This document shows, one piece after another, positions 15,237 to 55,084 of a stretch of 64,000 nt of DNA (the stretch's first letter is position 1; each line of letters starts with the position of its first letter). The position numbers and the translations under genes are program-made. The notes beneath the pieces were generated by a model. That model searched no databases, had not been told where the DNA came from, and worked only from the letters and a program-made list of their open reading frames with translations. This DNA comes from Limosilactobacillus reuteri subsp. reuteri (GTDB lineage Bacteria; Bacillota; Bacilli; Lactobacillales; Lactobacillaceae), in the NCBI RefSeq assembly GCF_000016825.1, contig NC_009513.1, positions 1,372,501 to 1,436,500 of the forward strand, written 5' to 3'.

Positions 15237-18200
15237 TTAATTTTCACTAGTTACCATATCTTTTTTTGCCCATTTAAGGGAAGCAGTAGAGTTAACTGTT
15301 ACCGGCTCGCCATACTTAGTATTATTACTATCAACGGAATCAAGCCAAAAGTCATAATAATAATGGTTACCATCCGCTGTCTTATAATCAGCAGTACCAG
15401 TTATATTTTGTGGTAAGTTTTCTTTTAACTTGTTCAGAGTAGCAGTGCTAATATTTGTCCCCTGTGCACCAGTTAACAGTTGCTTTACACTCTTAGTATT
15501 TATCAAGGGCATATCGATACCCTTTGTAAGTTGTTCTCCTGCCTTTAATGGATCGGTGAGAACAACTTGCTTACCGCCAACCTCATTCCACACTTTAGAA
15601 ACGCGAATACTAATCGGTGATGTTACCTCTTGAACACCAGGTTCAGCATCAACTACCACCGTTGCTGAATACTTAGCAGTCAATGGCTGGCCGTATTTAA
15701 CATCCTTATTATCATTGACAAATTCGACTACTCTATTTGCATCGCCTTCGATCCAGTAAACATAATGATACTTGGCTCCATTAGCTGCTTCATAAATTGG
15801 TGAGGAGATACCATTACTTAGTTGATTAGCAATCTGGGTTAAGGCTTCTTGACCGATTACTTGATTGCTTTCACCACTCAATTGCTTACTTACTGAAGCA
15901 TTCAAAAATTCCTTATTATCTAAGACTTTCCCGGTAACTAAACCATCATTGGGCTTTACATCGGTATTATTCCAAATCTTAGTAACAACTGATTTAAGTG
16001 CCGACTTTACTTGTTCAGGACTCTTGTAACCCTCAAGCATTCCTTTATAAACGTTTAATGATTGAAGCGGGTGACCTTGATCATCAAATAGTGCAACATT
16101 ATCCCAGGTAGTTCCACCCCATATAGTCTGACCATTGTAATACATCACTGAATCTGGAGCATAACCAACTGCATTCTTTGATGCCCAACCGGTTCCATAT
16201 ACATCAGACATTTTCTTATTATAGTCCCAATTTTGCCAACCAGCTTTATCAGGAATCCACCTACTCCGCCTTGGGCAACTAATGCTTTATACATATCTTC
16301 AATTGCATTAACCTGCCCTTGCGGATCATGACTATATGCTTGAATCTCATCATTAGCACTAATAGAATTTCCTGTCCCATCGGCATCATTGACATTATTA
16401 ATCCAGCCTGTTTCTAGTACAACAGTTTTCTTACCAAATTTCCGCCAAGCCATCTTTTCAATCGCTTCTAAGTTAATTGGTGTACTTGCGCCATATCCCA
16501 GATCAACATTGTCATACCAACTATTACCGTCATGAGTCGACCAGAATGGGTAATAAGAAGTTCCTAGGTAGTCATACTCGACATTATTATTCTTCAAAAC
16601 CGTCATAATGCTACGATACTTACTAATGTTTGGTGTCTCAAGCTGAATGGCAATCTTGGCATTTGGTAATACTGACCTAACTGCTCCTGACGCGGTTCCT
16701 AAATATTTAGCAACTTGGTTTCCTTGGTCACTTTCCCATATAGTCGCCCAGTTTTCACCATGGTCACGGCCGGTCCAAATACCAAAAGCACCATTAGTTA
16801 CTTCATTCCCTACTTGAACCATTTCAACATCAGCGCCGGCCTGCTTCAAATCGTTAAGAACTTTGCTTGTGTATAAACTTATCTCTTTTGTAAGATCAGC
16901 TGACGATAAATTCTTCCATGCTTTGGGAAGCGGTTGCTTAGCTGGATCAGCCCAGAAATCAGAGTAGTGGAAGTCAACTAAGATTTTCATTCCATATTGA
17001 CTTGCCTCACTAGCCATCTTGACTAATGACTCTTCATCATTATTTCCACCACCATAACCAAAGCCTTCTGCATTGTATGGATCATTCCATAGACGAAGAC
17101 GAATCCAGTTTACACCAGCATCTTTTAACATCTTAAACAAGTTAGCTTCTTGACCATTAAAGTCATAGAATTTAACACCAGCATTAATTAAAGACTGGTA
17201 ACTGGAAATATCAACTCCACGAATCATATCATCTGACATGTTTGGAATCTTCTCAACAGTAATACTATCATAACGGAGACCAGTATCAGTACCTGTCTTA
17301 TATGCTAGGTTGAGTTCTTCAGCAGTTTTTCGACTGGCCGGGGTCTTATCATTAGCAGTGCTCTTAGCTGCACCCCAAGTTAAAGTAGCAGTATACGTTA
17401 TCTTAATTGGATCACCATACTTAACACCATTATTAGCTATCAAGAAATTATTTAACTTCTCAGTAGCATCTTTTCCAGCTAGCCAAAATTCATAATGGTA
17501 AGCATCCCCATTATCGGCATAGCAATTCTTTGCACCATCTAAAGCATATTCATTACCTGCTAGGCCAGCAAAAATTGCTTTTAACACATCATCAGAGATT
17601 CGAGTGCCTTGTTTACCTTGTAAGAATTCACTGCTAAATTGAGTAACGCCATCTTTTACATCAGCATTACTTAAGTTGTCGTTAACTTTAATGGCATCTT
17701 TTACCGTTACACTGAAACCGGCAGCAGGGTAAAACGGTACTGATAGTAACGTTTACTGGCGAACTTGCTTTTTGAGAAACATTTTCTTGACCTGGTTTAA
17801 ATAAAACAATCGCTAACTGATCTTTGCTTGCATCTGCCCCTACGCCCAATACCGAATTATTAGCATCAGCTGGATTAAATGAATTGATAAACCGTTGAAC
17901 AAGTGTTGATAGGTCAACATTATTAAAGTTAGTGGTAAATACAGATAATACATTACCCGTTAATAACGAATTTTTCTTTAGCTTATCAGCAATACTTGCC
18001 TTATTTGCTTTAGTATCGCCCTGTGCTACCTCTTGGGCTAAATCATGTAAGGCTAATTCACGGTAATTATGATCTTTACTTTGCCAATCATATTCAACAT
18101 TTTGAATATTTTCATTATTTAATGCTGTGGCTACCTGCTTAGCAACAGTATTTCAAATTTCAGAAGGATCATTTACTTGGATTGCTTCACCATTAACATT

Positions 18201-19077
18201 GAAATGATAGAATTTACCGTCAATGATCTTCTCTTGATCAGTGAGCATAATTCCATCATTATCGAAATAATACTGTTTACCATCCTTATTTAAGAATTGA
18301 CTGGTATAACAAGCACCATCAGCTCCAAAGTAATAAGTGTGGTTATCAATATTCTTAAATTGATCATGGATATTAAGAACTGCCCCATTAGCATCGAAAT
18401 AGTAATACTTATTATCAAGTCTCTCAAAGCGTGAAATAGCTTGCTGACCAGCTGGACCAAAGTACTTATTATCTATCCACTTATTAGTTACTTTTAAGTA
18501 AGTCGTCGGATCAAAGTAATAATAACTACCGTACCATTCCTTTAACCCTGTAACGATACGACCATCTGGGCCAAACATATACCAATCGCCCCACTGAGAT
18601 TGACGGTAATCATTATCTACTCGCAAATAAGTATTCGGATCAAAGTAGTAATACGTGCCAGCCCATTGGTAAACTTTAGTAACAATGCGGCCATCGTGAC
18701 CGAACATATACCAAAGCCCCTATAGTCATTGTCTACTCGTAAATAAGCGCGTGGATCAAAGTAGTAATATGTGTCAGCCCATTGCTGTACACCAGATTGA
18801 GCAATCCCATTATCCATCAAATACCAGTTTGTATTCCACTGAACATTAGTATTAGGAATAGTTGGTAAATTAACGTACTGTCGGCCATTCAGTGGTTTTC
18901 CATCCTGATAATAGGTCGATTGACCATTTTCATTTTTCCAACCGGTCACAATTGTCTGTTGCTCGTTATCATTCACTTGCGAAGTAACCGTTAATTGATT
19001 TTGAGTAGTCTTTGACTGTGTATTCGTATTTTCTTTATTACCATCTTCTATTGATAAAGTGGCGGTTGGGGCTGAAG
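15237..19077 (-). pseudogene. Broken secreted GH53 endo-beta-1,4-galactanase with glycan-binding repeats
   Basis: Reading the minus strand across frames gives one large former protein: low-complexity N-terminus, header and aromatic repeats (18200-18960), an about 100-residue domain, a GH53 catalytic domain (about 16240-17250), then two more copies of the 100-residue domain. GH53 residues survive: acid/base Glu in 'QVGNEVTNG' (about 16800) and nucleophile Glu in 'VVLETGW' (about 16415). Lesions: IS truncation at 19077, a 13-14 base deletion near 18720 in a repeat, in-frame TGA at 18153-18155, a frameshift near 17735, and a small deletion with frameshift near 16245 that removes the usual 'FYWE' segment. 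It would have cleaved galactan outside the cell. The signal peptide is lost. Confidence 0.88.
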
Positions 19078-19707
19078 TGCAAGAAAAAAGTTAGACAAAA
19101 TTAAAATATTAAGCTGCTAAGGCATGATTTCGGTATTCGACCGGAGTCATGCCTTTTGCTTTTAAGGTTGTTCTGACATGATTAAAATATTGAACATATT
19201 CTTGAGAAAGTTCGCTTAATTCTGCAATATCCTTACAAGGCAGAAATCCTGCTAGTAACTCAGTCTTAAATAAGTGAAAGAAACTTTCTACTGGAGCGTT
19301 ATCCAGGCAATTTTCCTTCCGTGACATACTTTGAATAAACTGGTGATCCGCCAATTTTTAAGTATAGTAATCTAACTGGTAATGCCAGCCCTGATCCGAA
19401 TGGATAATTGGGTAAGCATTATCAGGTAGATTGGTAATTAATTCTTCTACGGTTTTTACAATCAGTTCTTTATTCGGACCAGTACCTATTTGAAAAGCTA
19501 GAATCTCTTGACTTGCTTCATCAATCATCGCTGAGATATAAGCCCACTGATGATTAGCTAAGCGGACCTGTGTCACGTCAGTATGAATAACATGATAGGG
19601 ACGTTTTTCATTGAAGTTTTGTTTTAACCGATTGTCCGCAATCTTACCAACCGTACCATGAGGCTGGGAATTAACTATTAATTCTTGATTCTCTAACAGT
19701 AAAATCC
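19078..19707 (-). pseudogene. IS3-family (IS150-like) transposase OrfB, C-terminal remnant
   Basis: The minus-strand reading gives 'VIHTDVTQV' and 'IIHSDQGWHY' (DDE aspartates), then 'QSMSRKENCLDNAPVESFF' with the catalytic Glu, as in IS3-family OrfB. An in-frame TAA at 19358-19360 interrupts it. The N-terminal part and orfA are missing, because 19708 onward is different DNA. Its left end cuts the galactanase gene at about 19077. Confidence 0.85.
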
Positions 19708-19735
19708 GGACTATGATTTTTGATCGAGGCACTAT
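19708..19735 (+). repeat. Remnant matching the IS1182 3' end, inverted
   Basis: The plus strand here resembles the minus strand at about 21380-21420 (shared CCGGACTA.GATTTTT and GATCGAGGC). That is the 3' end of the IS1182-type transposase gene on the other side of the IS3 element. The IS3 element is thus flanked by inverted copies of the same sequence. Confidence 0.55.
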
Positions 19736-19764
19736 CAAGTATACAGTTTAAATAGAAAAATAGT

Positions 19765-20616
19765 TTATGCGGCTTGAGCGCGGAATTTTTCTGCGCTCAA
19801 GCCGTTTTTAGATGTATAAGCTCGTTGAGTGTTGAAATATTTAATAGCTTCCTTTACTGATTGTTCTAATTCCGTCAATGTTTTAGGCCGCGAACGTTTG
19901 GCTAACCAAATGAGCTTAAAATCATTCCACCAGCGTTCCATCGGCGAGTTCTCCCAAGGATGGCCTGGGTGTGACATGCTGTGAATACAGTTTTGATCGG
20001 CTAAATAGTCATTAAAAGCCATTGAACAATATGCTGATCCGCGATCCGTATGGATCAGCGGATGGGCATCCGGTTCCACTTTGAAGGCACGTTTAAATAC
20101 CTCAATTGCTGACACTGCTGTTTCTGTGGGTGAGATATTGTAGCTCAAAGCGTAACGTCCATACAGGTCCAAAACCACATGCACGCGAGCCTTCTTTACC
20201 TGATCTATCCCGTACAGAACCTCTGTAGTATCGGTTACCCAAACTTCGTTTTTACTCTGACGATCAAATTGTTCATTGAGTAAATTATCATTGATATATT
20301 CTTCATAACGCTTAACGCGATTATGTCTCTTCTTCCGGATATTAGCCCTGATTCCATGATTTCTCATACAATTAGTTGCCCGCTTTAGTCCCGCCTTGAA
20401 GCTTAGTTTATTTTCGAAGGCTAGTTGCGTTGTCATCGCTAAGTAACCCAGTGTCCACTTATGTTTTTCTTCCAATTCTAGAATTGCTTCAAGTAGCTCT
20501 GATTGTTCAACTTTATAATTACTTGGCTTTCTATGAAGCCACTTGTAGTAAGCATCTCTAGTTATGCCAGCGATCTGACACAAGACACTAATTGGCCAGT
20601 CATGTTCTTGACTCAA
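19765..20616 (-). CDS. IS3-family transposase OrfB
   Basis: 283 residues, complete. rve/DDE integrase core with 'VWVTDTTE', 'LIHTDRGSAY' and the Glu in 'ENSPMERWWNDF'. The N-terminal part is the HTH_21-type region. The start is TTG, and OrfA ends just inside it. The overlap contains A-AAA-AAT, a possible -1 slippery site to make an OrfAB fusion. OrfA is broken, so the element is probably inactive alone. Confidence 0.9.
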   Translation of the reverse strand: MSQEHDWPISVLCQIAGITRDAYYKWLHRKPSNYKVEQSELLEAILELEEKHKWTLGYLAMTTQLAFENKLSFKAGLKRATNCMRNHGIRANIRKKRHNRVKRYEEYINDNLLNEQFDRQSKNEVWVTDTTEVLYGIDQVKKARVHVVLDLYGRYALSYNISPTETAVSAIEVFKRAFKVEPDAHPLIHTDRGSAYCSMAFNDYLADQNCIHSMSHPGHPWENSPMERWWNDFKLIWLAKRSRPKTLTELEQSVKEAIKYFNTQRAYTSKNGLSAEKFRAQAA

Positions 20617-21326: not shown

Positions 21327-21377
21327 AAAAAATGCCCTCCAAGTATATAAGATGAATTTTCTATTTCATCTGTATAC

Positions 21378-25160: not shown

Positions 25161-25205
25161 CATGATTTATTAGCTATTTATTCACTAATAAAGATCATTT
25201 TCATA

Positions 25206-28200
25206 TTAAATATTTTCTTGGTTTGCATAGTAATCTGCAGACGATATAGCATCAGGCAATGTTGTTGCAAATGCTTTATTATTACCATCATTCAAATATG
25301 CATAGTAACCGTTAGGCATTTTAACTGCTAAACCAATACCAACATTCTGTAATGAAGTACCATTTTCATATTTAGCTGACCATTCAGTAATGCGAGTATT
25401 CGGATCAGGTGCCACTCCTGTGGAAGCAGCCTTTGTAGTAAACAAGTCTGGATACTTTTGCTTTAATTCAGCTAGATACTTACCACCATAATCTTGTTGA
25501 CCTTGGCCTCCACCACGTGTATAGCCAAAGTAGATTTGATCGGCAAACGTTTGACCATCAACACTTAACTGTTTTGCATCACGATCTACTCGTGTAACTG
25601 TAACAGCTTCTTGAGTTGAGAAACCAATCATCTGATTCATCACAAGGTCTTCTTGAACCTTTAAACCAGCCTGATGAAGTGCTGCAATCGCATTAGAAAG
25701 TTCTTCTCCATTACCATATTTAGTAGGATTATCTGCAGTACCTAAATTATAACGATCTGTCATAGCATATCCCTCATTATAGCGACTCGTATTAAATGGC
25801 GTGTAGGAAGGAGCCATCCAGAAATCAGTAATACCTAATTGATTAAACAAGGCTACATTATCCTTTATTACATTATAGGCATGTTCATTAACGGTAGTTG
25901 GTTCTGGCTGGAACAAGGAGAAGTCTTCATAAATCATATGTGAATCTAAGGCTGCATTAGAAGTAAATACTTTTCCAGGAACATTTCGGACTTCTTGTGC
26001 ACTTGTCCGAGCATTTTGAGTACCATTAATTAACGGTACCCAAACACTTAGATAGCCACTTACATAAGGATTACTGTAACCCTTAACCGTAACCCGTAAA
26101 ATACCCTTACTATCAGTTGTAAGGACTGATGGATTTACAGAACCGTTGCTATTATAGGTTAATCCATCAGCAGTACTATCAATTAGATTACGATATTGTT
26201 CATTAGCATGGGCAAGTCCCATATTAATTGCTACTACCTGCTCACTCATTGACGGATTATTCCCGACAATAACGGCCATTCCAGTAGTACGACTTAATGG
26301 ATCTGTACCGTTGCTCGATACATCGACAACTCCTTTACCATACCGAACACTGGTAATAAGATTATCATTCACTTTAGTCATTGTCTGACCACCGTTAACA
26401 AATTCACCACGTGCTTTCATCAGTGTAGTAATTGCATCATAATACATTGACTTCGTCTTCATATACTGATCGGTTTCTTTATATAAATCGCCATAGTATA
26501 CCTGTGGAACCGTATCTTTATTACTTAATAGCAGAGCATATTGTGCTGGCAAGTTATACTGAGCATATTTCTTATCAGCCTTTGCTTGATCTGCATAGAA
26601 TTCATCCCATGCTTTTTGAGCATAAGTCGACTTATAGCTATTAGCCATAATATCTGGAATATTAGGATGATTGTCAATAATAATTTGATTAATCACATTC
26701 TTTCGCTGATCATGATTAGTTACAAATGACCAGTTAGGCGTAGCGGTATTCTCAGTAATATCATTAGCTCGGTTAACGACACTATTGGTTATTAGGTTAT
26801 TAACATTGTCTCGTTTGTTTTCAGCTTGTCCTAAAACATTTTCTAATGTATAGAAATATCCCGCATCCATAAATAATTCAGGATTTCCTTTATCATTAAG
26901 CATTCTAGCAGCACCTGAGTGGTAACCTTCGTTATATACTAAATGGTTGTTAGCATTTTCCTGGTTACCCTTCGTATGATACATATCATTAACAAGTTGT
27001 CCCAATTGATCCAGCACATCTGCATCAATGTTATCTGCAGCATCTACCCGGAAACCATCAAAATTACCATCAGCATTATACTTCATTAGTTTACCGTAAT
27101 TTAATAGGAAGTATTCCCAATTAAAGTTTTCAGCTTGGACAGCTGGATTTGAATTATCAATATCATTACCAACTAATAATTCTGGACTCTGATCACTATT
27201 ATCATTATTTGTCTGATTATTAATGGTTCTGTTCATTAAACGATAATTGCTATCAGCATAGCTAGTATTACCCTTAGCTTGATTATCTGAATTGTTATTA
27301 ATAAAGATTAGCTGGTTATTATCAATTGAACCACTAACATCTGGAACATAGCCATTGCTATATTCTACCGGCAATTCAGATTTAGCTGATAATTCAGGAA
27401 TCGTTAGCATAAACTTATTAATATCATTTGCTAATGGACCAGTTGACTTATTAGCAGCAATACTCTTTTCGATTACGAAGCGAAGATTACGAGCATATTT
27501 ATTTAATGTTTGGGTATCAGTATCTTGCGAAAGATTAGTTACGTTATCCTTAGTTAATCCATAATCAGTATTGGTATAGCCATTATCAACAAAGTATTTA
27601 ATAAATTTGGCTTCCACATCTTTACTTGGCCATGTATACATTAATAATGGGCGCCAATCACTGGCAGTTGTTTTATACCATGTCTTACCATCTTGGCTCG
27701 TACCATAAGGACGATACCAACCAGAATAACTTAGGTAACCATCAGTATTATTAATTGATGAAGAATCCTGACTATAAGCCATATTCTCCCAATCACCTGA
27801 ATCAAGAGTCTTAATCAGCTTATTGCTTAACGAGTCATAGATATTAAACTTGCCATCAACAATCTTTCCATAAAGATTTCCTAATAGTTGACCATTTGAT
27901 GCGAAGTGGTAGTTCTTACCATCTATTGTTTGCTTACCAACTAATGCTGCACCGTCGGAACCAAAGTAATAAGTGTGAGTGTCGATTTTCTTGAATTGGT
28001 TACGAATAATCTGACCATTGCCATCAAAACAATAAAATTTATTATTAATATTTTCTAATGATGAAATTGCTTGACGACCATCTGGACCAAAGTATTTATT
28101 ATCAATCCACTTATTTGTAACCTTAAGATAAGTAGTTGGGTCAAAGTAGTAATAGCTACCATACCATTCTTTCAAGCCAGTAACAATTCGACCATCAGGG

Positions 28201-29673
28201 CCGAACATATACCAGTCGCCCCATTGAGATTGAACATAGGCATTATCGACCCGTAAGTGGGTTACCGGATCAAAGTAATAGTAGCTACCAGCCCATGGAG
28301 CAACCTTACTTGCTGCTGTTCCATCTGCTGTAAACAAGTACCAGTTACCATTATTAGCTTTGATATAATTATTAGTTACTGCAAGGTAAGTTACAGGATC
28401 AAAGTAATATAATTGATTATTTTTACTCCATTTATATAGACCAGTCACAATTCGACCATCTGGACCAAACATGTACTTAGATCCCCATTGAGATGTTACA
28501 TAATCATTATCGACCCGTAAATAAGTTGTAGGATCAAAGTAATAATATGTTCCAGCCCATCGCTGAACACCACTTTGAATCCGACCATCATTACCAAAGA
28601 GGTACCAATCACCCCATTGAGATTGGAGATAAGCATTATCTACACGCAAATAAGTTGTGGGATCAAAGTAGTAATATGTTCCGGCCCACGGATAAACTTT
28701 AGTCACAATCCGACCATCGTGACCAAACATATACCAAAGTCCCCATTGCGACTGACGATAATCGTTATCTACACGCAAATAAGTTGTAGGATCAAAGTAA
28801 TAATATGTTCCGGCCCACTGTTGAACGCCAGATAATACTTGACCATCGTTGCCAATCAGGTACCAGTCGCCCCATTGAGATTGAACATAATTTTCCTTGT
28901 TAGCTTGAAGATGAGTTACGGGATCAAAATAGTAATATTTACCATTAACACTTTGAATACCGGATAGAGCTGCCCCATCGTTTCCTAGTAGCATATTTCC
29001 TTTAGAAGTAGAAATATACTTATTAGTTTCACGGAGATAGGTTGTAGGATTAGCATAATACGTATTTCCATTGTAATCATAAAGACCGGTAACAGCTCGT
29101 CCGTCTTTACCGAACATATACCAATCTCCCCACTGAGATTGACGATATTCATTATCTACTCGAAGATATGTAGAAGGGTTAAAGTAGTAGTAAGAACCAG
29201 CCCATTGTTGAACGCCAGATTGTGCAATACCATTATCTACTAAATACCAATTATTATCGGTTTGGACATTTGTATTAGGAATTGTTGGCAGGTTCACATA
29301 CTGGCGTCCCTTGAGAAGTTGATTGTTTTGATAATACTCCATTTGCCCTTGAGCATTCTTTACCCAACGATTTTGTTGTTGATTAGAATTATCTGCTTTA
29401 GGATTAATTGATTTAGGGCTTTGAACTTTTTGTGCTTTTTGATTATTAGTTACGTCATTAGTACTTGCGTTAGAGGATACAGATTTAATATTTTCACTCG
29501 TTTGTGCAGCAGGCTGATTGACAGCAACATTATCATTTGCATTGGTTGCTGAATCAGCACTTGCTACCCCCCCCTAAATTTAAAATAAGGCCAGCTGAAA
29601 CTGCAGTAATAATGGCTGCAGTAAACCATTGCTTACCGCTTTTATATAGTTTAAAATGCTTTTTTATGTCCAT
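25206..29673 (-). pseudogene. gtfB: GH70 4,6-alpha-glucanotransferase (GtfB type), signal-peptide frameshift
   Basis: ATG 29673 opens a KxYKxGKxW signal peptide ('HFKLYKSGKQW'). A run of eight G (minus strand) at 29567-29574 shifts frame and gives a stop at 29554-29556 after 39 residues. The main frame then runs 1378 codons from 29342. Order: LPTIPxTNV header, nine 43-residue repeats and two shorter ones, then the circularly permuted GH70 core. Motifs: II 'FDGFRVDAADNIDADVLDQ' (about 27035), III 'YNEGYHSGAA' (about 26925), IV 'TNHDQRKN' (about 26715), I 'LKVQEDLVMNQMIGF' near the C-terminus (about 25645). Tyr after NEG and 'NHDQRKN' fit 4,6-alpha-glucanotransferases acting on starch/maltodextrin, not sucrose-using glucansucrases. 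All three catalytic residues remain, so one base would restore the gene. Confidence 0.88.
29567..29574 (-). repeat. Homopolymer G8 tract in the signal peptide of the GH70 gene
   Basis: Eight C on the plus strand. Seven or ten would join the KxYKxGKxW leader to the mature protein ('LNLGGVASAD'). Such tracts change length by slippage in other bacteria, and sequencers also miscount them. Confidence 0.9.
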
Positions 29674-29816: not shown

Positions 29817-29828
29817 GATTTCTATTTA

Positions 29829-30710
29829 TTATAAAATTCTTCTTGCAAAAGTTGGATGATAATATTTAATATTAGTTATCTTTACATTTTGTCCTTTCGT
29901 AGGTGCCTGGATAAAGTTGCCATCGCCAATGTAAATTGCAACATGATAGGCATTCCCGTAATTTCCCCAGAAAAGAAGGTCACCTGGCTGTAATGAATTT
30001 AGACTAACCGCTTTACCCTGATACTCTTGTTGATAGGTTGTTCGTGACAAACTTATGCCCACTTGTCGATATACATATTGAACTAGTCCTGAACAATCAA
30101 ATGAATTGGGCCCGATAGCTCCCCAAACATAAGGCATCACAGGTTGTTTAGCAATTGAAACAACTTGTGATGCCTTATTTGAATGAGCAATTCCTTCGTT
30201 ATCAAAATAATAGCTAGTACCATCGATTATCAATGTTTCATTAGTTGCACGAGTACCATCAGATTTAAAGTAATACGAATGTCCCCAATTGTAATACCAC
30301 TTGTTCTGATACATGACCCCACTATTATCGAAATAGTAAACTTTATTATTTTGGTTTAAAAAGTAATTAGTTTGCCTTTGACCATTTTGATAGTAATAAT
30401 TATTACCATTTTCGTTAACTACTCCATTTGTAGCAGCTTGACTCTGAACTAAATTTACTGACTGAAAATTAGAAGAAGGTGTTACCTGCATATTAATCTG
30501 TTGATCAGATGTCTGATTATTCTCATCCTTCTTTACTAAATTATTATTCTGACTATTATTAGTTTTATCAGATACTAATACAGCAGATTGTTGCATTTGA
30601 TTATTTGGATTAGACTCATCAGCATTTACAATACTTATCGAACCAATAAGAAATACACTACATGAAAATAATGCTGAGTACCATTTTATATTGCCCTTAG
30701 TAAACTTCAT
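29829..30710 (-). CDS. Secreted NlpC/P60 peptidoglycan endopeptidase
   Basis: 293 residues. The conventional signal peptide (about 1-30, ending 'VNADES') has no KxYKxGKxW motif. An Asn/Gln-rich linker is followed by about four short 20-residue YYF-type wall-binding repeats (110-190). The NlpC/P60 domain (about 190-293) has catalytic Cys in 'FDCSGLVQYVY' and His in 'AYHVAIYIGDG'. It should cut peptide stems in peptidoglycan. Its repeats are shorter than the 43-residue units of neighbouring proteins. It has its own terminator. Confidence 0.9.
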   Translation of the reverse strand: MKFTKGNIKWYSALFSCSVFLIGSISIVNADESNPNNQMQQSAVLVSDKTNNSQNNNLVKKDENNQTSDQQINMQVTPSSNFQSVNLVQSQAATNGVVNENGNNYYYQNGQRQTNYFLNQNNKVYYFDNSGVMYQNKWYYNWGHSYYFKSDGTRATNETLIIDGTSYYFDNEGIAHSNKASQVVSIAKQPVMPYVWGAIGPNSFDCSGLVQYVYRQVGISLSRTTYQQEYQGKAVSLNSLQPGDLLFWGNYGNAYHVAIYIGDGNFIQAPTKGQNVKITNIKYYHPTFARRIL

Positions 30711-39578: not shown

Positions 39579-41211
39579 TTATTTAATCGTCTCAACACGA
39601 ACACCATCACTATTGAAGACATATGTTACACCGTTAATTGTATGACGACCAGTGTAGGCTACGCCGTCGGTACCAAAGTAATAACTCTTCTTTGCGTTAT
39701 CATCATTGAACCAACGATTCTTTAACATATTACCATTTGCGTCAAAGCGATAAAGACGACCATAATCATTCAAGAAACGGTTTTGATAACGTACACCATC
39801 AGCACCGAAGTATTGGTTGTTTACCCACTTATTTGTAACCTTTAAGTAAGTAATTGGATCAAAGTAATAGTAATTTCCGTACCATTCTTGCAAACCGGAT
39901 AAGACCTTACCATTATTATCAATTAGGTACCAGTCACCCCACTGGGATTGAACATAATTACGCTTGTTTGCTTGAAGATGAGTTGTTGGATCAAAGTAAT
40001 AATATGCATTATTCATACTTTGAACGCCAGATAAAGCTGCTCCATTATCACCAAGAAGAACGCCACGGCCATCTTTTGCATTCTTAATATACGTATTCTT
40101 TTCACGAAGATATGTTACCGGATTAGCATAATAAGTATTACCTTTGTAATCATAAAGACCTGTTACAATTCGACCATCATTGCCAAACATATACCAGTCA
40201 CCCCATTGTGCCTGACGGTAATCATTATCGACACGGAGGTAAGTTGTTGGGTCAAAGTAATAATAACTTCCAGCCCATTGTTGGACACCAGATAATACTT
40301 GACCACTATCACCAATTAGGTACCAGTCACCCCACTGTGATTGAACGTAATTACGCTTATTCGCTTGAAGGTGAGTAGCGGGATCAAAGTAGTAATAAGC
40401 ATTATTCCAATACTGAATACCAGATAAAGCTGCCCCATCTGCACCTAAAAGTACACCACGACCATCTTTTTCAGTTTGAATATACGTATTTTTTTCACGA
40501 AGGTAAGTTACTGGGTTTGCATAATAAGTATCACCATTATAACCATATAAACCAGTTACAATTCGACCATCATTACCAAACATATACCAGTCGCCCCATT
40601 GAGCTTGACGGTAGTCATTATCAACGCGGAGATACGTTGTTGGGTCAAAATAGTAATAACTTCCGGCCCACTGCTGAACGCCTGATTGAGCGACACCATC
40701 TTTTACAAAGTACCAGTTAGTATCACCTTTTACATTTGTATCGGGAATTGTTGGCAATTGAACATATTGTGTGCCTTTTACATCTTGACTATCTTTACAA
40801 CTATATACCCATTGGTTATTAGTATTTTTCGTCCAATTAGTTGTTTGTGGGGCCTTATTTTCATTTGGCTGATCAGTAGTTTTTTCAGCACCTTGTTTAC
40901 CATCAGTTTGGCCCTGAGACTGATCAACATTAGTAACCTTGTTTTTGAACTTATCGGTTGTTTGATCCTTATTGGTAGGTGAATCAGTTATGTTCCTTTC
41001 TGTATTTCCTTTAACTGTTGTTGCTTCTTTAAAAGAATTATTAGTCTGGTCAGTCGTTTGTGTTTGTTGGATAGTAGTATTAGTATCAGTTGTTGCCGCA
41101 GACGCATTATTAACAGACGCTAATCCTAGCGTTGCCACAAAAGTAAGCAATAGCTGTAATACACCATTGCTTACCACTTTTATACAACTTGAAGTGTTTT
41201 TTTGAAGACAT
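39579..41211 (-). pseudogene. Repeat-only KxYKxGKxW surface protein, signal-peptide frameshift
   Basis: ATG 41211 starts a KxYKxGKxW leader ('HFKLYKSGKQWCITAIA'). One extra base at about 41145 shifts the frame, with a stop at 41110-41112. The body (41177-39579, 532 codons in the other frame) has the rest of a signal peptide, a Thr/Asn/Gln-rich linker, the LPTIPDTNV header and nine repeats. Modules 1-3 and 4-6 are a duplicated triplet. No catalytic domain is visible, so it looks like a pure glycan-binding or scaffold protein. RBS AAGGAGT precedes the ATG. Function is inferred only from the repeats. Confidence 0.82.
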
Positions 41212-46019: not shown

Positions 46020-46020
46020 T

Positions 46021-47748: not shown

Positions 47749-48723
47749 TTACCTTATCTTCTTATTATTTTGAATTACTCTTAGCTTATAAATGATAGTA
47801 GCACACAAGTAAAAATGATATTTGCAAAATACTAGTGGCAACAATCTGGGTGTAAGTACATTTTTTAAGCTAATTACTTCTAATGCGTTACTTATATAAT
47901 CTTTTTTACAAAGTTCCTTTAGCTCGAACATTGAATTATGACTTCTTACAAAAACATGATGAACTATCATCAAGTTAAATTGCATCAGCACAAAAAAATT
48001 AAATGACTTTTCAAAATTTGGGAATCCATTTAAATCCTTTTTTACTTGTAAAATTGCTTTTTCATATTCATGAATCATTTGTGAATTATATTTTCTAACT
48101 GTTGAATTTTCTGACAAGATATAATTGTATATATTTTTCTTAATAAACCGTATTTTTTTACATAGTAATACGTACCTAATTAAGAATTCAGAATCTTCTG
48201 AATATGCTAATTTAGCATTGAACCTAAGATTCTCTTTTCTTATCAAGGTTGTCTTATAAAACTTTCCCCAGACAGTCATATACTTAGTAGGATTTTCTAG
48301 CATTTGCTTAATAATTGATATACAATTGTTTTTACATTTTGTCATAGAATATAAATCAATTTCTGACTTATTAACGAGATAATTGCCAATAATTAAATCT
48401 TCTTCGGCATTTACCAAAAGCTCTCCTAATTTACTACTCAAATTTAGCAAGCAATCATCTGCATCTAAAAAGGTAATCCAATTTGCACTAGCTATTTCTA
48501 TGCCTTTATTCCGAGCATTGGAAGCTCCTTTTTTTGATTCAGCATAAATCACACTAGAATTCTTTTGAACCTCTTGCTTTATTAGCATCTCAGTTTTATC
48601 CGTTGACCCATTATTTACCACTATTACTTCTATTTGATCACTCAAGTATACTCCTGTACTTCTAATAGCCTGAATAATAGTCTTTTCACAATTATAAGCG
48701 GGAATTACTACAGATAATAGCAT
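47749..48723 (-). CDS. GT2-family glycosyltransferase
   Basis: 324 residues. GT-A fold opening 'LLSVVIPAYNCEKTIIQAI', with 'VVNNGSTDKTEMLIKQE', 'GASNARNKGIEIA' and the metal-binding 'WITFLDADDCLL'. EpsJ-like family. Acceptor and sugar are unknown. It is the last gene of the EPS/hydrolase region, separated from other glycosyltransferases by the hydrolases. It may decorate EPS or another surface polymer. The 47572-47748 stretch downstream holds nothing I recognise. Confidence 0.88.
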   Translation of the reverse strand: MLLSVVIPAYNCEKTIIQAIRSTGVYLSDQIEVIVVNNGSTDKTEMLIKQEVQKNSSVIYAESKKGASNARNKGIEIASANWITFLDADDCLLNLSSKLGELLVNAEEDLIIGNYLVNKSEIDLYSMTKCKNNCISIIKQMLENPTKYMTVWGKFYKTTLIRKENLRFNAKLAYSEDSEFLIRYVLLCKKIRFIKKNIYNYILSENSTVRKYNSQMIHEYEKAILQVKKDLNGFPNFEKSFNFFVLMQFNLMIVHHVFVRSHNSMFELKELCKKDYISNALEVISLKNVLTPRLLPLVFCKYHFYLCATIIYKLRVIQNNKKIR

Positions 48724-48756
48724 TTACTCCTACTCCTTTCATAAACATATTACCTA

Positions 48757-48803
48757 AAATAAAGAGGACTAAATAAAAATTACTTAGCCCTCCTTATTAT
48801 TTT
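48757..48803 (-). terminator. Terminator of the lipoprotein gene
   Basis: Long imperfect stem (AAATAAAGAGGACTAAATAA with its near-complement at 48780-48803) with A/T flanks, located 33 bases after the lipoprotein stop and just before the GT2 gene. Confidence 0.75.
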
Positions 48804-48835
48804 CTATTTAGCTTAACAAAAATCCTATCACTCTA

Positions 48836-49405
48836 CTATTTGCCAGTAACAGAATTTGCAGTAACATGGTAAGTATGACCATTTCCAGAAACAGTCCAAT
48901 TGTTAGTGCCATTTTGTGTAGCTGTGTAACCGTCAATCGAATCAATCGATGGCAAGTCATCGGTTGACTGCCCTGCAACACCACGATCATTTAATTGGTT
49001 ACCAATATGTTCCTTAACAATATTTCGAGCATCAGTAGCAGTCATCGTTGCCTGTTGGTCATTAGAACTTTGCTTTACGCTAGACTTAGCAGAACTGCCA
49101 TTGCTTGAAGTTATTGTTGAAGAGACAGCATAGTTAGCGCTACTTGATGACTTACTTGCATTGGAAATACTGTTCTTAGAAGATGCACTTTTTTCATTAG
49201 TTTGAGAATCTTCATTACTGTTACTTACAGTCTCTCTTTCAGAACTAATCCTATTCTTATTAGAATGATGCTTCTTAGTAACTTTACTTGAAGTAACTTC
49301 AGAACTACTATCAGAGCTATCAGAAGAACTACTATTACCACAGGCAGCTAAGGTTAACATTAATGTTCCGGCAGCTAAAGTTGTAAATAGTTTTTTTAAT
49401 TTCAT
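48836..49405 (-). CDS. Ser-rich lipoprotein of unknown function
   Basis: 189 residues. Lipobox 'TLMLTLAACGN' gives a lipidated Cys at about residue 22. A long Ser/Asn/Lys-rich linker (25-115) would reach through the wall. The small C-terminal domain (about 120-189, 'ATDARNIVKEHIGNQLNDRG' and 'NGTNNWTVSGNGHTYHV') looks like a compact PepSY-like or similar fold, a weak guess. Its place between a hydrolase and a glycosyltransferase suggests an envelope role. RBS GAGGAGAAG. Confidence 0.82.
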   Translation of the reverse strand: MKLKKLFTTLAAGTLMLTLAACGNSSSSDSSDSSSEVTSSKVTKKHHSNKNRISSERETVSNSNEDSQTNEKSASSKNSISNASKSSSSANYAVSSTITSSNGSSAKSSVKQSSNDQQATMTATDARNIVKEHIGNQLNDRGVAGQSTDDLPSIDSIDGYTATQNGTNNWTVSGNGHTYHVTANSVTGK

Positions 49406-49472: not shown

Positions 49473-50789
49473 TTACATATTGATGTAGAAACTTGGTGTG
49501 AAGTATTTTGAATAACCAATCTTTACAACATCACCTGGCTCTGGTGCGTGAACATAAGTACCATTACCAAGAGAAATAGCTACATGATATGGAGCGCCAT
49601 CACTACCAAAGAATAGTAATGAACCCTTTGGAGCATTCATTACATCACGCTTATGAGCACCTAAAGTAGCTTGCTGGTAAGTTGTTCGATAAGCTGAACC
49701 TAAACCATAAGCCCATTGAACTAACCCAGAGCAATCAAAGCCAGCCGGAGTATTTCCTCCCCATACGTAAGGAACACCACGTTGGGATAATGCACGGTTA
49801 ACTTTAGCATCAACATTAGACACTTGTTTGGCAATACCATTAGCATCTAAATGATATTTCACGTTATTAACCGTTACATCTTGATTAACTACCTTCTTGA
49901 AAGTAGTTGGGTCAAAGTAGTAAGTCTGACCTTTCCAACTTTGAAGCCCTGAAAGAATCCGTCCGTCATTGCCAAAGAGATACCAGTCACCCCATTGGGA
50001 TTGACGGTAATCATTATCTACACGAAGGTAAGTACTTGGATCAAAATAATAGTATGAACCAGCCCATTGCTGTACTCCCGTTTGAATACGACCATCATTG
50101 CCAAAGAGATACCAGTCACCCCATTGGGATTGACGGTAATCATTATCTACACGAAGGTAAGTACTTGGATCAAAATAATAGTATGAACCGGCCCATTGCT
50201 GTACTCCCGTTTGAATACGACCATCATTGCCAAAGAGGTACCACATTCCCCATTGGGATTGTACATAATTATTGTCTACACGTTGATAATTATTGTTCGC
50301 ATCAAAGTCATAGTATGAACCAGCCCACTGTTGTACTCCTGATTGAACAACACCGTTATCAACTAAGTACCAACTATTACCTTCTCCGTTGATTGTTGGT
50401 AAATAAGTATAGTCACGTCCTGATGTTACCTCACCATTTTGATAATATGTCCAGTCATTGTTTTCATTTACCCAACCATTTTTTTGCTGGGTGTCTTGTG
50501 GCTGTACTGGTGTAACTGCCGGACTAGCAACATTTGTATCAACATTAGTGGTTTGTTCAGCGGCATCTACCGAATTAGATTGTACAGCAGAACTTGCTGC
50601 ATCTGAAGTGCTAGTAGCAGGAGTTTCTTCAGCTACTTGGGTAGTTTGTACAGTAGATGTTGTAGTAGTGTTTACGTCATCTGCATTTGCTGATGTAGCT
50701 AATCCAACGATACTAGCTACTGTGGCAAATGCCATAACGCACCATTTTTTACCATCTTTGTATAACTTGTAATGTTTCTTAGTATCCAT
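49473..50789 (-). CDS. NlpC/P60 endopeptidase with KxYKxGKxW signal and 43-residue repeats
   Basis: 438 residues. Signal 'HYKLYKDGKKWCVMAFATV', Thr/Ala/Val-rich linker, header 'GWVNENNDWTYYQNGEVTSG' ending YTYLPTI, four aromatic repeats (about 150-315), then the NlpC/P60 domain (about 330-438) with Cys in 'FDCSGLVQWAYG' and His in 'PYHVAISLGNGTYVHAP'. It should cleave stem peptides. Repeats 2 and 3 are almost identical at DNA level. Frame intact. Confidence 0.94.
   Translation of the reverse strand: MDTKKHYKLYKDGKKWCVMAFATVASIVGLATSANADDVNTTTTSTVQTTQVAEETPATSTSDAASSAVQSNSVDAAEQTTNVDTNVASPAVTPVQPQDTQQKNGWVNENNDWTYYQNGEVTSGRDYTYLPTINGEGNSWYLVDNGVVQSGVQQWAGSYYDFDANNNYQRVDNNYVQSQWGMWYLFGNDGRIQTGVQQWAGSYYYFDPSTYLRVDNDYRQSQWGDWYLFGNDGRIQTGVQQWAGSYYYFDPSTYLRVDNDYRQSQWGDWYLFGNDGRILSGLQSWKGQTYYFDPTTFKKVVNQDVTVNNVKYHLDANGIAKQVSNVDAKVNRALSQRGVPYVWGGNTPAGFDCSGLVQWAYGLGSAYRTTYQQATLGAHKRDVMNAPKGSLLFFGSDGAPYHVAISLGNGTYVHAPEPGDVVKIGYSKYFTPSFYINM
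49974..50231 (-). repeat. Tandem 129-bp repeat inside the NlpC/P60 gene
   Basis: Two adjacent 129-base units (49974-50102 and 50103-50231) differ at one base (AACCAGCCC versus AACCGGCCC). Each encodes one 43-residue module. This implies very recent duplication or gene conversion. Confidence 0.93.
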
Positions 50790-51014: not shown

Positions 51015-52613
51015 TTAGAATTCACCATAATATAGGCTTACCAACTCATAAAAATCACGCATTGTATAATCAGTACCATAGAAATTGTGGGCATTTGTGT
51101 ACCAATAACCATCCGGATCTGTATGATCAGTACCACCTAAATATTGAGATACATTATGATGAGACCATAGAGTTCCGTTACCATTAGATACTAACGAAGG
51201 CGCAAACCCATACTTGTGCATAATATATGCAGTGTAGTAAGCAGCGTTAGAAAGTTCCCGAGCAAACGCATCTGCATTATGTACCTCAACTTGTTCAAAT
51301 TGAACGGCCCGACCATTAGCAGGATAACCTGCACCCCAAGCCTCATGGTCAGTATTTGAGATCTGAATTATATTGTTATTATCTACAAAGGCATGAACGA
51401 ATGCATCATTATAATGATTCTTTTCGTAATTTATTTCACCCCAAATACTATCATTAGGATTAGCAGTTTCATGGACGATAACTATATTTGGTAATCCATT
51501 ACCCGTACCACTATATTTTCCAGTAATATTCAAAGGAATGGCCTGCCCATTATCATAAAATGTAATATTAGCATGACCAAGATTATTATTAAGAATATAG
51601 TTGTTAATTGAATTCAATCCAGAAGTAATAATTCCACTGCCACTTGCCCAATAACTTTTACCATTCGCTGAAACCCACTGGTTAGTTGCCTTGGTATATA
51701 AGTAAGGAGTAAAGTAATACAAACTTTCCTTCCAGCCATAAAGTCCTGAAACAATTCGACCATCTGGACCAAACATATACCAATCCCCCCATTGGGATTG
51801 ACGGTAATCATTGTCTACTCGAAGGTAAGTACTTGGATCAAAGTAATAATAAGTATCATACCATTTTTGGACTCCGGTTTGAATACGACCATCATTGCCA
51901 AAGAGATACCAGTCACCCCATTGGGATTGACGGTAATCATTATCCACGCGAAGGTAAGTACTTGGATCAAAATAATAGTACGTACTAGCCCATTGATAAA
52001 CTTTGGTAGCAATTCTACCATCTTTACCAAACATATACCAATCGCCCCATTGGGATTGACGGTAGTCATTATCCACGCGAAGGTAAGTGCTTGGATCAAA
52101 ATAGTAATAGGTATCGGCCCATTTTTGAACACCTGTCTGAATTACACCATTATCCGTTAAGTACCAGTTGCTTCCGCTGCCTTTACCATTACTTGTAATT
52201 GTTGGTAAATATGAATAAGTACGACCTAAATCAGTTTTACCATTTTTATAAAAAGTCCAGCCATTAGATTCTTGTACCCAACCATCTTTTACTGGTGTTG
52301 ATATCTCTGTTGACTTTGGTGTTACTGAGTTTGCTTTTTGATCCGTGGCTTGTTGAGTACTAATATTTCCCTGTTGATTATTTTGATTAGACTGATTAGT
52401 CTCACTTTCGCCAATTTTAGCATCGGTTGATTCTATTTGAGTAGCATCAGATGCTGAACTCTGTGCTAAACTCGTTTCTGCCTGTGCTGTATCAACTGTT
52501 GTATCAGCACTAGCAACCCCAGTTAAACTAACTGTTAATGCTAGTGCAGTAATTGCCATGACACACCAATTTTTCCCCGACTTATATAATTTATAATGCT
52601 TTTTATTAGTCAC
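51015..52613 (-). CDS. N-acetylmuramoyl-L-alanine amidase (Amidase_2) with KxYKxGKxW signal and repeats
   Basis: 532 residues. Signal 'HYKLYKSGKNWCVMAITALA' (ending VASAD), Gln/Thr/Ser-rich linker, header 'GWVQESNGWTFYKNGKTDLG' ending YSYLPTI, four to five 43-residue repeats (about 150-320), then an Amidase_2 domain (about 350-520). Zinc ligands are probably His in 'IVIVHETANPND', His in 'LWSHHNVSQY' and the later 'DHTDPDGYWY'. It should cleave MurNAc-L-Ala bonds. Frame intact. Confidence 0.93.
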   Translation of the reverse strand: MTNKKHYKLYKSGKNWCVMAITALALTVSLTGVASADTTVDTAQAETSLAQSSASDATQIESTDAKIGESETNQSNQNNQQGNISTQQATDQKANSVTPKSTEISTPVKDGWVQESNGWTFYKNGKTDLGRTYSYLPTITSNGKGSGSNWYLTDNGVIQTGVQKWADTYYYFDPSTYLRVDNDYRQSQWGDWYMFGKDGRIATKVYQWASTYYYFDPSTYLRVDNDYRQSQWGDWYLFGNDGRIQTGVQKWYDTYYYFDPSTYLRVDNDYRQSQWGDWYMFGPDGRIVSGLYGWKESLYYFTPYLYTKATNQWVSANGKSYWASGSGIITSGLNSINNYILNNNLGHANITFYDNGQAIPLNITGKYSGTGNGLPNIVIVHETANPNDSIWGEINYEKNHYNDAFVHAFVDNNNIIQISNTDHEAWGAGYPANGRAVQFEQVEVHNADAFARELSNAAYYTAYIMHKYGFAPSLVSNGNGTLWSHHNVSQYLGGTDHTDPDGYWYTNAHNFYGTDYTMRDFYELVSLYYGEF

Positions 52614-52791: not shown

Positions 52792-53562
52792 AATCATAAC
52801 CACCCGTCAAACGGGTGGTTTGCACATCGGCTATAAGCCGATAATAAAAGCCGGCGTCTCAAGGCGCTGGCTTTCGCTTTGCTCAAGCCAAAATGCTCTG
52901 ACTACTTTGCCACCGCTTTAAGCGGTGTTTATACTACCTCACTTACCCTTAAAAGGGTCCGAATATTCCACACTTGTTAGCTTATCCATTGCTATATCAT
53001 GTTTCTCTTGATCTCGGATATACTTCTTTATCGTGGATTCATTTAATCCAACTGTACTCACATAGTAGCCTTCAGCCCAAAAATGTCGGTTCCCATATTT
53101 GTATTTTAAGTTTGCATGTCGATCAAACATCATTAATGCACTTTTCCCTTTTAAGTATCCCATAAACTGCGAGACACTTAGTTTCGGCGGAATACTTACT
53201 AACAAGTGCACATGATCTGGCATCATATGACCTTCAATTATTTCTACTCCCTTATATTTGCACAACAAACGAATATAATCTCTCAGGTCTCTTCGGTATT
53301 GATTGAAGATCGCTTTACGTCTATACTTTGGTATGAATACGATGTGATACTTACATAACCACTTCGTATGGGCTAAGCTATTTAATTTATTAGCCATATT
53401 TATATAACCTCTTTTCCCTTATTGACTTTGGCTTGAACACCTACATCTTAAGGCAAAAGAGGCCTTTTTTATATAATTTTTATCGCCCACCCGCATAGCA
53501 GGTGATTTTTTGTTTCGTGCACTCGCTCTGCTCGCGCACTCAACTAGGTCTAAAGACATTAA
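52792..53562 (-). mobile_element. IS200/IS605-family element, copy 2
   Basis: 771 bases, the reverse complement of 32721-33491. I found one difference (T/C in the left hairpin region). It lies between the glucosaminidase and amidase genes without breaking either. Confidence 0.9.
52939..53397 (-). CDS. tnpA: IS200-type TnpA transposase (Y1 HUH)
   Basis: 152 residues, same amino-acid sequence as the copy at 32886-33344, with the 'DHVHLLV' HUH motif and the tyrosine in 'TIKKYIRDQE'. Frame intact. Confidence 0.95.
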   Translation of the reverse strand: MANKLNSLAHTKWLCKYHIVFIPKYRRKAIFNQYRRDLRDYIRLLCKYKGVEIIEGHMMPDHVHLLVSIPPKLSVSQFMGYLKGKSALMMFDRHANLKYKYGNRHFWAEGYYVSTVGLNESTIKKYIRDQEKHDIAMDKLTSVEYSDPFKGK

Positions 53563-53592: not shown

Positions 53593-53605
53593 AAGTGATA
53601 TATAC

Positions 53606-55084
53606 CTAAAATACTTCTTTGTCCCAAGCCTCTAAATTATATGTTCGAATAACATTATTTAAACTAGAAGCATATTTAGGATCTGTTGCATAACCATCAG
53701 CATGTAAATAATTTGTAACAGTAGCATAGTCTTTCTTCCACAAAAGATTGCTGTATCGTTTATTAGTAGCAAGGAAACGCCCGTGGTCAACTACACTCTC
53801 ATAATTACTTGGATATTTCCGAAATGCATCATTAATGTAATAATAACCACCAGTACCATATTCAGCAGTTCTCATAACAATTGACTGACCATTATAGCTA
53901 CCTTTAATACCAAACAAATTATGTCCTTGTGTAGCAAGAGCAGATTGACCCCAAGCACTTTCAAGAATAGCTTGAGCTGCAGTTACAGATGGCAATACAC
54001 CGAATTGTCGCCAGCCATCTAAAGCCGCATCATGGATACTTAATAGGAAATTAGTATTCCGATTAATTCCTGAAATAATCCCTGTACTATCGGCATGAAG
54101 GTTTAGTCCAGCTACCGTAATATTTTTATTAGTTACCTTTAAATATGTACTTGGATCAAAATAGTAATAGCTACCAGCCCACTTTTGAAGGCCAGATAGT
54201 ACACGCCCATCACCACCGAAGAGATACCAATCACCCCATTGAGATTGACGATAATCATTATCTACTCGTAAGTAAGTATTGGGATCAAAGTAATAATAAC
54301 TACCGGCCCATTGATATACTTTAGTGGCAATCCGTCCATCATTACCAAACATATACCATAACCCCCATTGAGATTGACGGTAGTCGTTATCTACTCGTAA
54401 ATACGTACTTGGATCAAAATAATAGTAGCTACCAGCCCACTTTTGGACACCGGTTTGAATTTGCCCATCATTGCCAAATAGATACCACATCCCCCATTGT
54501 GACTGTACATAGTTATTATCTACTCGTAAGTAAGTATTTGGATCAAAATCATAGTATGTGCCAGCCCACTTTTGGACACCAGATTGGACAACACCATTAT
54601 CAACTAAATACCAGTTATTACCAGTACCATTAATAGTAGGAAGATATGAATAATTGCGACCAGATGTTACATCACCATTTTCATAATATGTCCACTGATT
54701 ATTTTCCTTAATCCAACCATTTTTCACCTGTGCTGCTTGTGGTTGGATTGGTGTAAATTGACTAATATCCTCATCAGTCTGTGTGTTATCACTTGTTACA
54801 TTTACATGTACATTATTTGAATTTTCATTAGCATTATTTGAAGCTACTTCATCACTACTTTTAGGCGTAGCAGTAACTAGCTGGACTTCATTATTAGTCG
54901 TAATGTTGTTGGTGGTAACTTCTGTTTGTACTGCATTATTAACTGATTCTTCACTAGAATTATTCGCATTTGTATCAGCATTTGCAGTAGTGAACATTAC
55001 CATTGTACTTGCCAATGTTGCAATCGCCATTACACACCACTGTTTACCGCTTTTATATAGTTTATAGTGCTTACGCAAATTCAT
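53606..55084 (-). CDS. GH73 glucosaminidase with KxYKxGKxW signal and repeats
   Basis: 492 residues. Signal 'HYKLYKSGKQWCVMAIATLA' (ending TANAD), Asn/Thr/Val-rich linker, header 'GWIKENNQWTYYENGDVTSG' ending YSYLPTI, five repeats (about 155-340), then a glucosaminidase domain (about 345-492) with the catalytic Glu likely in 'AQAILESAWGQSALA', plus 'HNLFGIKGSYNG' and 'FRKYPSNYESVVDHGRFL'. It should cut the glycan backbone of peptidoglycan. With the amidase and NlpC/P60 it attacks three different bonds of the wall. Confidence 0.94.
   Translation of the reverse strand: MNLRKHYKLYKSGKQWCVMAIATLASTMVMFTTANADTNANNSSEESVNNAVQTEVTTNNITTNNEVQLVTATPKSSDEVASNNANENSNNVHVNVTSDNTQTDEDISQFTPIQPQAAQVKNGWIKENNQWTYYENGDVTSGRNYSYLPTINGTGNNWYLVDNGVVQSGVQKWAGTYYDFDPNTYLRVDNNYVQSQWGMWYLFGNDGQIQTGVQKWAGSYYYFDPSTYLRVDNDYRQSQWGLWYMFGNDGRIATKVYQWAGSYYYFDPNTYLRVDNDYRQSQWGDWYLFGGDGRVLSGLQKWAGSYYYFDPSTYLKVTNKNITVAGLNLHADSTGIISGINRNTNFLLSIHDAALDGWRQFGVLPSVTAAQAILESAWGQSALATQGHNLFGIKGSYNGQSIVMRTAEYGTGGYYYINDAFRKYPSNYESVVDHGRFLATNKRYSNLLWKKDYATVTNYLHADGYATDPKYASSLNNVIRTYNLEAWDKEVF

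Follow-up and report, generated by a model that had tools for sequence, protein, structure and literature searches.

A 43-residue repeat common to wall hydrolases and glycan-active enzymes of Limosilactobacillus reuteri: a probable surface-retention module and a possible slippage switch in one leader

Why should enzymes with unrelated catalytic domains carry one and the same repeat within a single locus? The question is raised by a stretch of 64,000 nucleotides (hereafter the window) of the Limosilactobacillus reuteri subsp. reuteri genome (contig NC_009513.1, positions 1,372,501 to 1,436,500), in which an earlier note had described a 43-residue unit in six genes and the sharing of this module by different catalytic domains. 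Both descriptions are borne out. By profile search the unit is found in 40 stretches of the window (one of them not significant), and 31 copies, which lie in six genes, score 40 bits or more (E 2e-13 to 8e-26); domain searches assign Glyco_hydro_53, Glyco_hydro_70, NLPC_P60, Amidase_2 and Glucosaminidase domains to five of the proteins, the sixth consisting of repeats only. The explanation that we favour as a whole, with somewhat better than even confidence, is that the unit would be a surface-retention module of the GH70 domain-V type, spread by exchange between genes and borne by enzymes exported through the ordinary Sec route, with slippage in the leader of the GH70 gene.

The unit has the form W-G-x-W-Y-x-F-G-x-D-G-R-I ... 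Y-Y-Y-F-D-P-x-T-Y-L-R-V-D-N, and eight alignment columns are invariant across 19 hand-picked units of the window. The genes that bear it, followed by a related gene, are:

53606..55084, minus strand: glucosaminidase (PF01832) with an in-frame KxYKxGKxW signal and 4 units (54122-54619), by domain and profile search
51015..52613, minus strand: N-acetylmuramoyl-L-alanine amidase (Amidase_2) with an in-frame KxYKxGKxW signal and 4 units (51672-52169), by domain and profile search
49473..50789, minus strand: NlpC/P60 endopeptidase with an in-frame KxYKxGKxW signal and 4 units (49881-50378), by domain and profile search
39579..41211, minus strand: repeat-only protein in which 7 units, two of them shorter, score 40 bits or more (39822-40718); its KxYKxGKxW leader, from 41211, is out of frame with the remainder
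25206..29573, minus strand: GH70 glucanotransferase, GtfB type, with 9 units scoring 40 bits or more (28104-29255) ahead of the catalytic core; the frame lacks the leader
18153..19090, minus strand: fragmented 5′ part of a broken GH53 gene, its pieces containing 3 units that score 40 bits or more; directly next to it is a transposase-like frame (19112-19747)
15237..18152, minus strand: remainder of the broken GH53 gene, with the catalytic domain (in 16145-17752) and a C-terminal region
29829..30710, minus strand: second NlpC/P60 protein, with shorter related repeats instead of the 43-residue unit

Throughout, G000 is the genome of the window, other G numbers are compared genomes, L numbers fetched loci and P numbers proteins of the public set. 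In the whole of G000 (1,999,618 bases, ~2.0 Mb) the unit is matched 37 times, 31 times in the window and 6 times outside it, in two Amidase_2 genes near C1:911k and C1:1159k. As a side observation, two unit-bearing Amidase_2 genes elsewhere in G000 (L046:5052-6254 and L047:4483-5748) are similar to each other and have leaders without KxYKxGKxW; the 10 kb fetched around each hold no relative of nine proteins of the polysaccharide locus described below.

What kind of repeat is it? When PDB chain sequences are ranked by a profile of the 19 units, the top match by far is 7dt1_A (‘Dextransucrase’; E 2.8e-36), which contains two units; it is followed by large clostridial toxin repeats and streptococcal glucosyltransferases, and then by pneumococcal autolysin repeats (2bml, 28.8 bits). 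The gathering cut-off of PF19127 (27 bits) is exceeded in three of the six genes, namely the GH53 piece (61.6), GH70 (55.7) and the repeat-only gene (38.9), as well as in the second NlpC protein (42.1). Since the unit profile matches 7dt1_A twice and the GH70 gene itself aligns with 7dt1 and 5jbd, the unit almost certainly belongs to the known class of GH70 domain-V, YG or cell-wall-binding repeats. It resembles GH70 domain V (PF19127, TIGR04035) in its sequence, in its tandem arrays and in its presence on secreted enzymes; it differs in its regular 43-residue form, in residing mostly on murein hydrolases and in falling under the Pfam cut-off in half of the genes. Passages of PMC11299179 describe GH70-type repeats as beta-solenoids which, in GH70 enzymes, bind dextran, and report that the solenoid of DsrP binds both cell wall and dextran through sites that seemingly do not overlap. 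The arrays described here would likewise fold as beta-solenoids.

A repeat of known kind might nevertheless be scattered at random, and gene order was compared in related genomes. The features of the window that matter in this comparison are:

55196..63833, minus strand: polysaccharide locus with an acyltransferase (55196), family-1 glycosyltransferase (57306), flippase (58372), Wzz (59993), UDP-galactopyranose mutase (62033) and priming sugar transferase (63177)
56275 and 60619, minus strand: two further genes of the polysaccharide locus, without assignment
47749..49405, minus strand: family-2 glycosyltransferase and a small Ser-rich lipoprotein-like gene, the latter with relatives near the NlpC gene in G013, G016, G032, G037 and G049

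In a sample of 50 genomes of the genus, 25 have a unit match at E<=1e-3, and ten have strong ones (E<1e-15: G000, G004, G009, G013, G016, G024, G032, G037, G046 and G049); across 396 genomes of Lactobacillaceae the unit (E<=1e-12) occurs in 20, spread over 7 of 40 genera. The hydrolase set is not randomly scattered. Five Limosilactobacillus relatives (G013, G016, G032, G037 and G049), like G000, hold a unit-bearing glucosaminidase, an NlpC protein and at least one amidase inside ~17 kb, the amidase being in pieces in G013 and G037. Polysaccharide-type genes lie among or beside the set in all five, as do relatives of the gene at 48836-49405, and relatives of the gene at 38343-39470 in four of them; a repeat-only gene is found at the hydrolase loci of G016, G037 and G049. 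Furthermore, in three genomes of another genus (G051, G090 and G217) unit-bearing GH25 proteins flank loci with UDP-galactopyranose mutase and a flippase, and in G090 they are accompanied by NlpC/P60 and GDSL proteins with the unit. Of the 17 other unit-bearing genomes whose loci were fetched, 11 have one or more relatives of the nine polysaccharide-locus proteins of the window in the fetched region, some of these matches being weak (28-30% identity in G037, G143 and G009). No such relative lies in the fetched stretches of G004, G024, G046, G165, G411 and G423, three of which are shorter than 7 kb, nor in those of the G013 GH70 locus (L038) and of two of the three G009 loci. Taken together, the position of unit-bearing hydrolases beside polysaccharide genes in several species is suggestive.

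Across other genera the carriers of the unit are GH25, NlpC/P60, C39, glucosaminidase and GDSL proteins, and an acyltransferase of the Acyl_transf_3 family adjoins a unit-bearing gene in G074 and G143. Separately, L071:8696-10912 and L070:11381-13915 are GDSL-type acylhydrolases bearing the unit in regions that also contain an Acyl_transf_3 gene. The joint occurrence of the two enzyme types hints at an acylated polymer.

The middle hydrolase slot is occupied by an Amidase_2 gene in the window and by Amidase_5 in G049 and G037, and a swap of the catalytic cassette was considered for it. It was rejected because G032 has both types, its Amidase_2 gene adjoining a broken relative of the G049 Amidase_5 (65% identity over 164 residues), so that differential loss explains the difference.

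If the murein hydrolases form the conserved core, how did a galactan and an alpha-glucan enzyme come to bear the same module? Exchange of the module between genes with unrelated catalytic domains is very probable, and sequence alignments show it in several cases. The broken GH53 gene matches that of G004 (L040) at 96.3% DNA identity over 15168-18336, a match that ends within a short-repeat region; the window array upstream of it is not matched by G004, whose own GH53 array has no unit of at least 40 bits. In leader and linker, the N-terminal 130 residues, identity is 91-96% among three proteins of different type, the repeat-only protein of G037, the GH70 protein P0003 and the GH53 protein P0063, while the repeat-only proteins of G037 and G049 share only 51% there. 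G049, in turn, matches the region 25166-30359, in which the GH70 gene lies, at 94.9% DNA identity. The synonymous divergence (dS) from G049 is 0.19 for GH70 and 1.1-2.6 for five other window genes; on these figures the GH70 gene of the window is a recent arrival by transfer. A search for GH70 on plasmids gave no match. From the low dS and the exchange of sequence, GH70 and GH53 are late additions, gained by horizontal transfer and cassette exchange. Recombination would have swapped cassettes of leader and array among catalytically unrelated genes, whereby GH53 and GH70 gained the module, and the old, conserved users would be the murein hydrolases, which cut different peptidoglycan bonds, joined in some genomes by the repeat-only protein.

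What, then, would the arrays do? By family, the expected substrates of the partner domains are peptidoglycan, galactan and alpha-glucan. Because these substrates differ, and because ten stretches examined contained no LPXTG-like motif and Pfam showed no other binding domain in the window proteins, retention at the surface is preferred to substrate binding, and the arrays probably provide it. A passage of PMC5216370 gives the belief that GtfB enzymes of this kind attach to the cell wall by their N-terminal part. The hydrolases are encoded next to a heteropolysaccharide locus of Wzx type, and the enzymes would most likely be held by their repeats on that surface polysaccharide or on another envelope polymer; that the neighbouring polysaccharide itself is the ligand we propose tentatively, from gene neighbourhood. 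The conservation of the gene set would favour a common surface ligand.

The earlier note had offered the alpha-glucan made by the GH70 enzyme as one candidate for such a common polysaccharide, so that all the repeats would tie the wall enzymes into a glucan coat. The closest solved relative of the unit is indeed the domain-V part of a GH70 enzyme, the GH70 protein of the window bears nine units, and passages of PMC11299179 have GH70 beta-solenoids binding dextran. Yet GH70 is missing from 14 of the 20 unit-bearing genomes of the family sample, the hydrolase set is present without GH70 in G032 and G037, and the GH70 gene of the window is a recent transfer with its leader out of frame. In the 396 genomes GH70 occurs in 74 (E<=1e-50), together with the unit in 6 (Fisher p 0.15, kinship uncorrected); in the genus sample it occurs in 10 of 50 (E<=1e-3), 4 of them among the ten strong-unit genomes (Fisher p 0.10, kinship uncorrected). 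Since GH70 accompanies the unit in 4 of 10 genomes at genus level and in 6 of 20 at family level, it is neither required for the unit nor clearly associated with it, and a glucan coat is unlikely. Of the proposal of one common polysaccharide, the common module and the non-random set stand, while the alpha-glucan of GH70 as ligand finds no support. The genome counts argue that the ligand need not be the alpha-glucan which the name of the repeat implies.

A system in which one repeat family is the common surface anchor of many wall hydrolases is known from the pneumococcal choline-binding proteins (LytA, LytB and Cpl-type). The likeness raises a second candidate, choline or teichoic acid, and it is strengthened by the choline-binding repeat names of the Pfam families matched and by the weaker PDB matches to pneumococcal autolysin chains noted above. 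However, choline kinase is found in none of the ten strong-unit genomes of the genus, in an indirect test whose control was positive in 5 of 14 named genomes and which bears on choline rather than on teichoic acid itself. Choline is for this reason improbable as ligand, and passages of PMC11299179 consider that the wall binding of the DsrP solenoid is likely not through choline; altogether we regard choline- or teichoic-acid-binding repeats as very unlikely.

There might also be no common ligand, recombination merely copying a convenient cassette and the arrays having diverged towards separate ligands. Leaders and arrays do undergo exchange, and unit types vary along the array (23 changes, shuffles 30-45) and, to a small extent, between genes (39 changes, shuffles 48-61); the invariance of eight columns over the 19 picked units and the similar hydrolase sets beside polysaccharide genes in several species speak against it, and we hold it to be unlikely as well.

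Several observations weigh against a common retention module tied to the neighbouring polysaccharide. At the level of the repeat class, the NlpC and glucosaminidase proteins fall under the PF19127 cut-off (23.1 and 22.6 bits) and the amidase has no listed match, while the TIGR04035 (glucan_65_rpt) cut-off of 147.7 bits is reached by none of ten proteins, the best scoring 75.9 bits. As regards the neighbourhood, loci were fetched for 18 of the 25 unit-bearing genomes, picked for strong matches, and the co-location is a count rather than a formal enrichment test; G004, G411 and G423 have no such polysaccharide genes in the 10.7-16.6 kb fetched; and the units are similar across species whose polysaccharide genes differ, a pattern not obviously expected of a specific exopolysaccharide ligand. 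Finally, in a poorly resolved tree built on 108 columns from 83 units, the units cluster neither by genome (48 changes, shuffles 46-59) nor by single gene (69 changes, shuffles 65-75), and recent homogenisation of the arrays is accordingly not seen. Concerted evolution had been considered as a separate candidate and was not borne out by this tree, nor by a DNA comparison of 23 window units (the G049 GH70 gene excluded as a recent transfer), in which the closest match within the genome, in another gene, is better than the closest in the orthologous gene elsewhere for 14 units, equal for 1 and worse for 8.

With these reservations, surface retention remains our preferred reading, and the module would constitute a testable surface anchor for several lactobacillus wall hydrolases at once. 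Passages of PMC12849098 describe a comparable case in Apilactobacillus kunkeei, where GH70 and GH32 enzymes, also of unrelated catalytic families, carry common PF19127-type repeats in one conserved cluster; both are treated there as enzymes of exopolysaccharide synthesis, unlike the peptidoglycan, galactan and alpha-glucan enzymes found here.

By which route would the enzymes reach the surface? The suggestions that most of the six genes start with a KxYKxGKxW signal and that this signal points to an accessory secretion route do not hold for G000. The signal is in frame and above cut-off in the NlpC, amidase and glucosaminidase genes only; the GH70 and repeat-only genes do have it, in a frame other than that of the remaining sequence, and none was found on the GH53 remnant. 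G000 has a single SecY (190.6 bits; SecY2 cut-off 249.6) and a single SecA (921.7 bits; SecA2 cut-off 930), both under the accessory cut-offs, which are exceeded by SecY2 in 13 and by SecA2 in 17 of the 50 genus genomes, while KxYKxGKxW signals occur in all 50. As accessory Sec is absent from G000, the simplest reading is that the repeat-bearing enzymes would leave by ordinary Sec. KxYKxGKxW signals are thus present in a genome without accessory Sec, as with SpcB of Lactobacillus rhamnosus, from a species without annotated accessory Sec, for which passages of PMC3584209 expect the same ordinary route; SpcB is an LPXTG-anchored adhesin, in contrast to the repeat-anchored enzymes considered here.

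The last question concerns the out-of-frame leader of the GH70 gene. Against PDB, this gene scores 1691 bits with 7dt1 and 1470 bits with 5jbd and contains the motifs FRVDAADNID, NEGYHSG and TNHDQRK. We take 5jbd to be a GtfB and these motifs to be catalytic, and the enzyme is accordingly classified, by sequence, as GtfB type. It shares with the GtfB-type 4,6- and 4,3-alpha-glucanotransferases of L. reuteri and L. fermentum the catalytic core, a chain end soon after the core and a long N-terminal part, in so far as passages of PMC5216370 describe them, the L. fermentum GtfB being reported there to lack a C-terminal domain V; it differs in its leader being out of frame at a G run. Two features define the break:

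29554..29673, minus strand: the KxYKxGKxW leader belonging to the GH70 gene, in a different frame from 25206-29573
29567..29574, minus strand: run of eight G (coding strand) in the Gly codons of the leader, the sole G8/C8 run of the genome

The frame break at this run, the only G8 on either strand of G000, separates the leader from a remainder of 1455 residues. Is it a mutation on the way to a pseudogene, or one state of a switch? Ordinary decay or an assembly error has, in our estimate, an even chance of explaining the out-of-frame leaders. The GH53 gene is plainly decayed, being in pieces with several frame breaks and a transposase-like frame against its 5′ end; the repeat-only leader is broken without any G run; and the G049 copy of GH70 has one internal stop. 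Against decay, the identical eight-G run and frame break recur in G049, and over 1454 codons the two copies differ with a non-synonymous divergence (dN) of 0.012 and a dS of 0.19, a ratio of 0.06 that denotes strong purifying selection. Moreover, in P0001, known as a protein sequence only, leader and remainder are in frame and just 7 of 1455 residues differ from the window, whereas the G049 protein differs at 37 residues from the window and at 38 from P0001 (the stop counted); with G049 as outgroup, the frame would have been either regained once on the P0001 branch or lost twice. A different gene in a third species gives a parallel case: in G007 (L080:769, G007:C4:216.8k) the KxYKxGKxW leader of a GH53 protein has a seven-G run at the same position and is out of frame with 1238 or more residues, while in P0121, a 96%-identical relative likewise known as protein only, the leader is in frame.

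Among 151 distinct leaders found with a regular expression, runs of at least seven G occur in 3, all out of frame, and 4 of the other 148 are broken within 100 codons (Fisher p 6e-5, descriptive only). The sample is biased, as the G007 leader was fetched for its short frame and 120 leaders come from among the matches listed, with ~340 bases after the leader; in 8 of the 120 fetched stretches the regular expression found no leader.

The frame pattern fits recurrent slippage under continued selection for function. The eight-G run would then put secretion of the GH70 enzyme under slippage control, and a reversible switch of this kind stands, in our judgement, slightly short of an even chance. More tentatively still, the Gly codons just before the KxYKxGKxW cleavage site might act as G-run slippage switches in Limosilactobacillus (GH70 in G000 and G049, GH53 in G007), flipping the secretion of surface glycan enzymes so that only part of the population builds or trims an alpha-glucan layer. 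The 5′ poly(A) phase variation of Listeria inlA (PMC2831843) offers a likeness, with a tract near the 5′ end, a very short product upon frame loss and recurrent origins; the tract described here is poly-G, lies in the Gly codons of a signal peptide and belongs to a lactobacillus. While both the repeat and its presence on several enzymes have known precedents, the G-run switch would be the new part and, if true, would constitute phase-variable secretion of a polysaccharide enzyme in a lactobacillus; no slippage control or phase-variable secretion of lactobacillus GH70 is described in the titles and abstract openings of the open-licence literature among the matches listed. One listed paper, about the glucosyltransferase of S. 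gordonii, contains a single mention of phase variation.

Some minor observations complete the picture. Mobile-element genes are interspersed among the repeat genes of the window (19112-22814, 30861-32234, 41361-42671, 45282-47253 and 52939-53397); named by eye, they include several transposases, an IS21-like pair and a reverse transcriptase. The segment 32016-32685 is 99.6% identical to part of G037. In G004, L040 contains a row of KxYKxGKxW proteins (four above cut-off) built on shorter choline-binding-type repeats, with C39, Lreu_0056-like, GH53 and weak M23-like domains, and this row adjoins an NlpC/P60 protein with seven full units, so that two repeat types stand side by side. Lastly, the unit is also found on Beta-lactamase2-type (PF13354) domains in G009 and G024 (L044:5184-6932 and L042:5965-6900), and in G009 a unit-bearing glucosaminidase lies near that gene as well.

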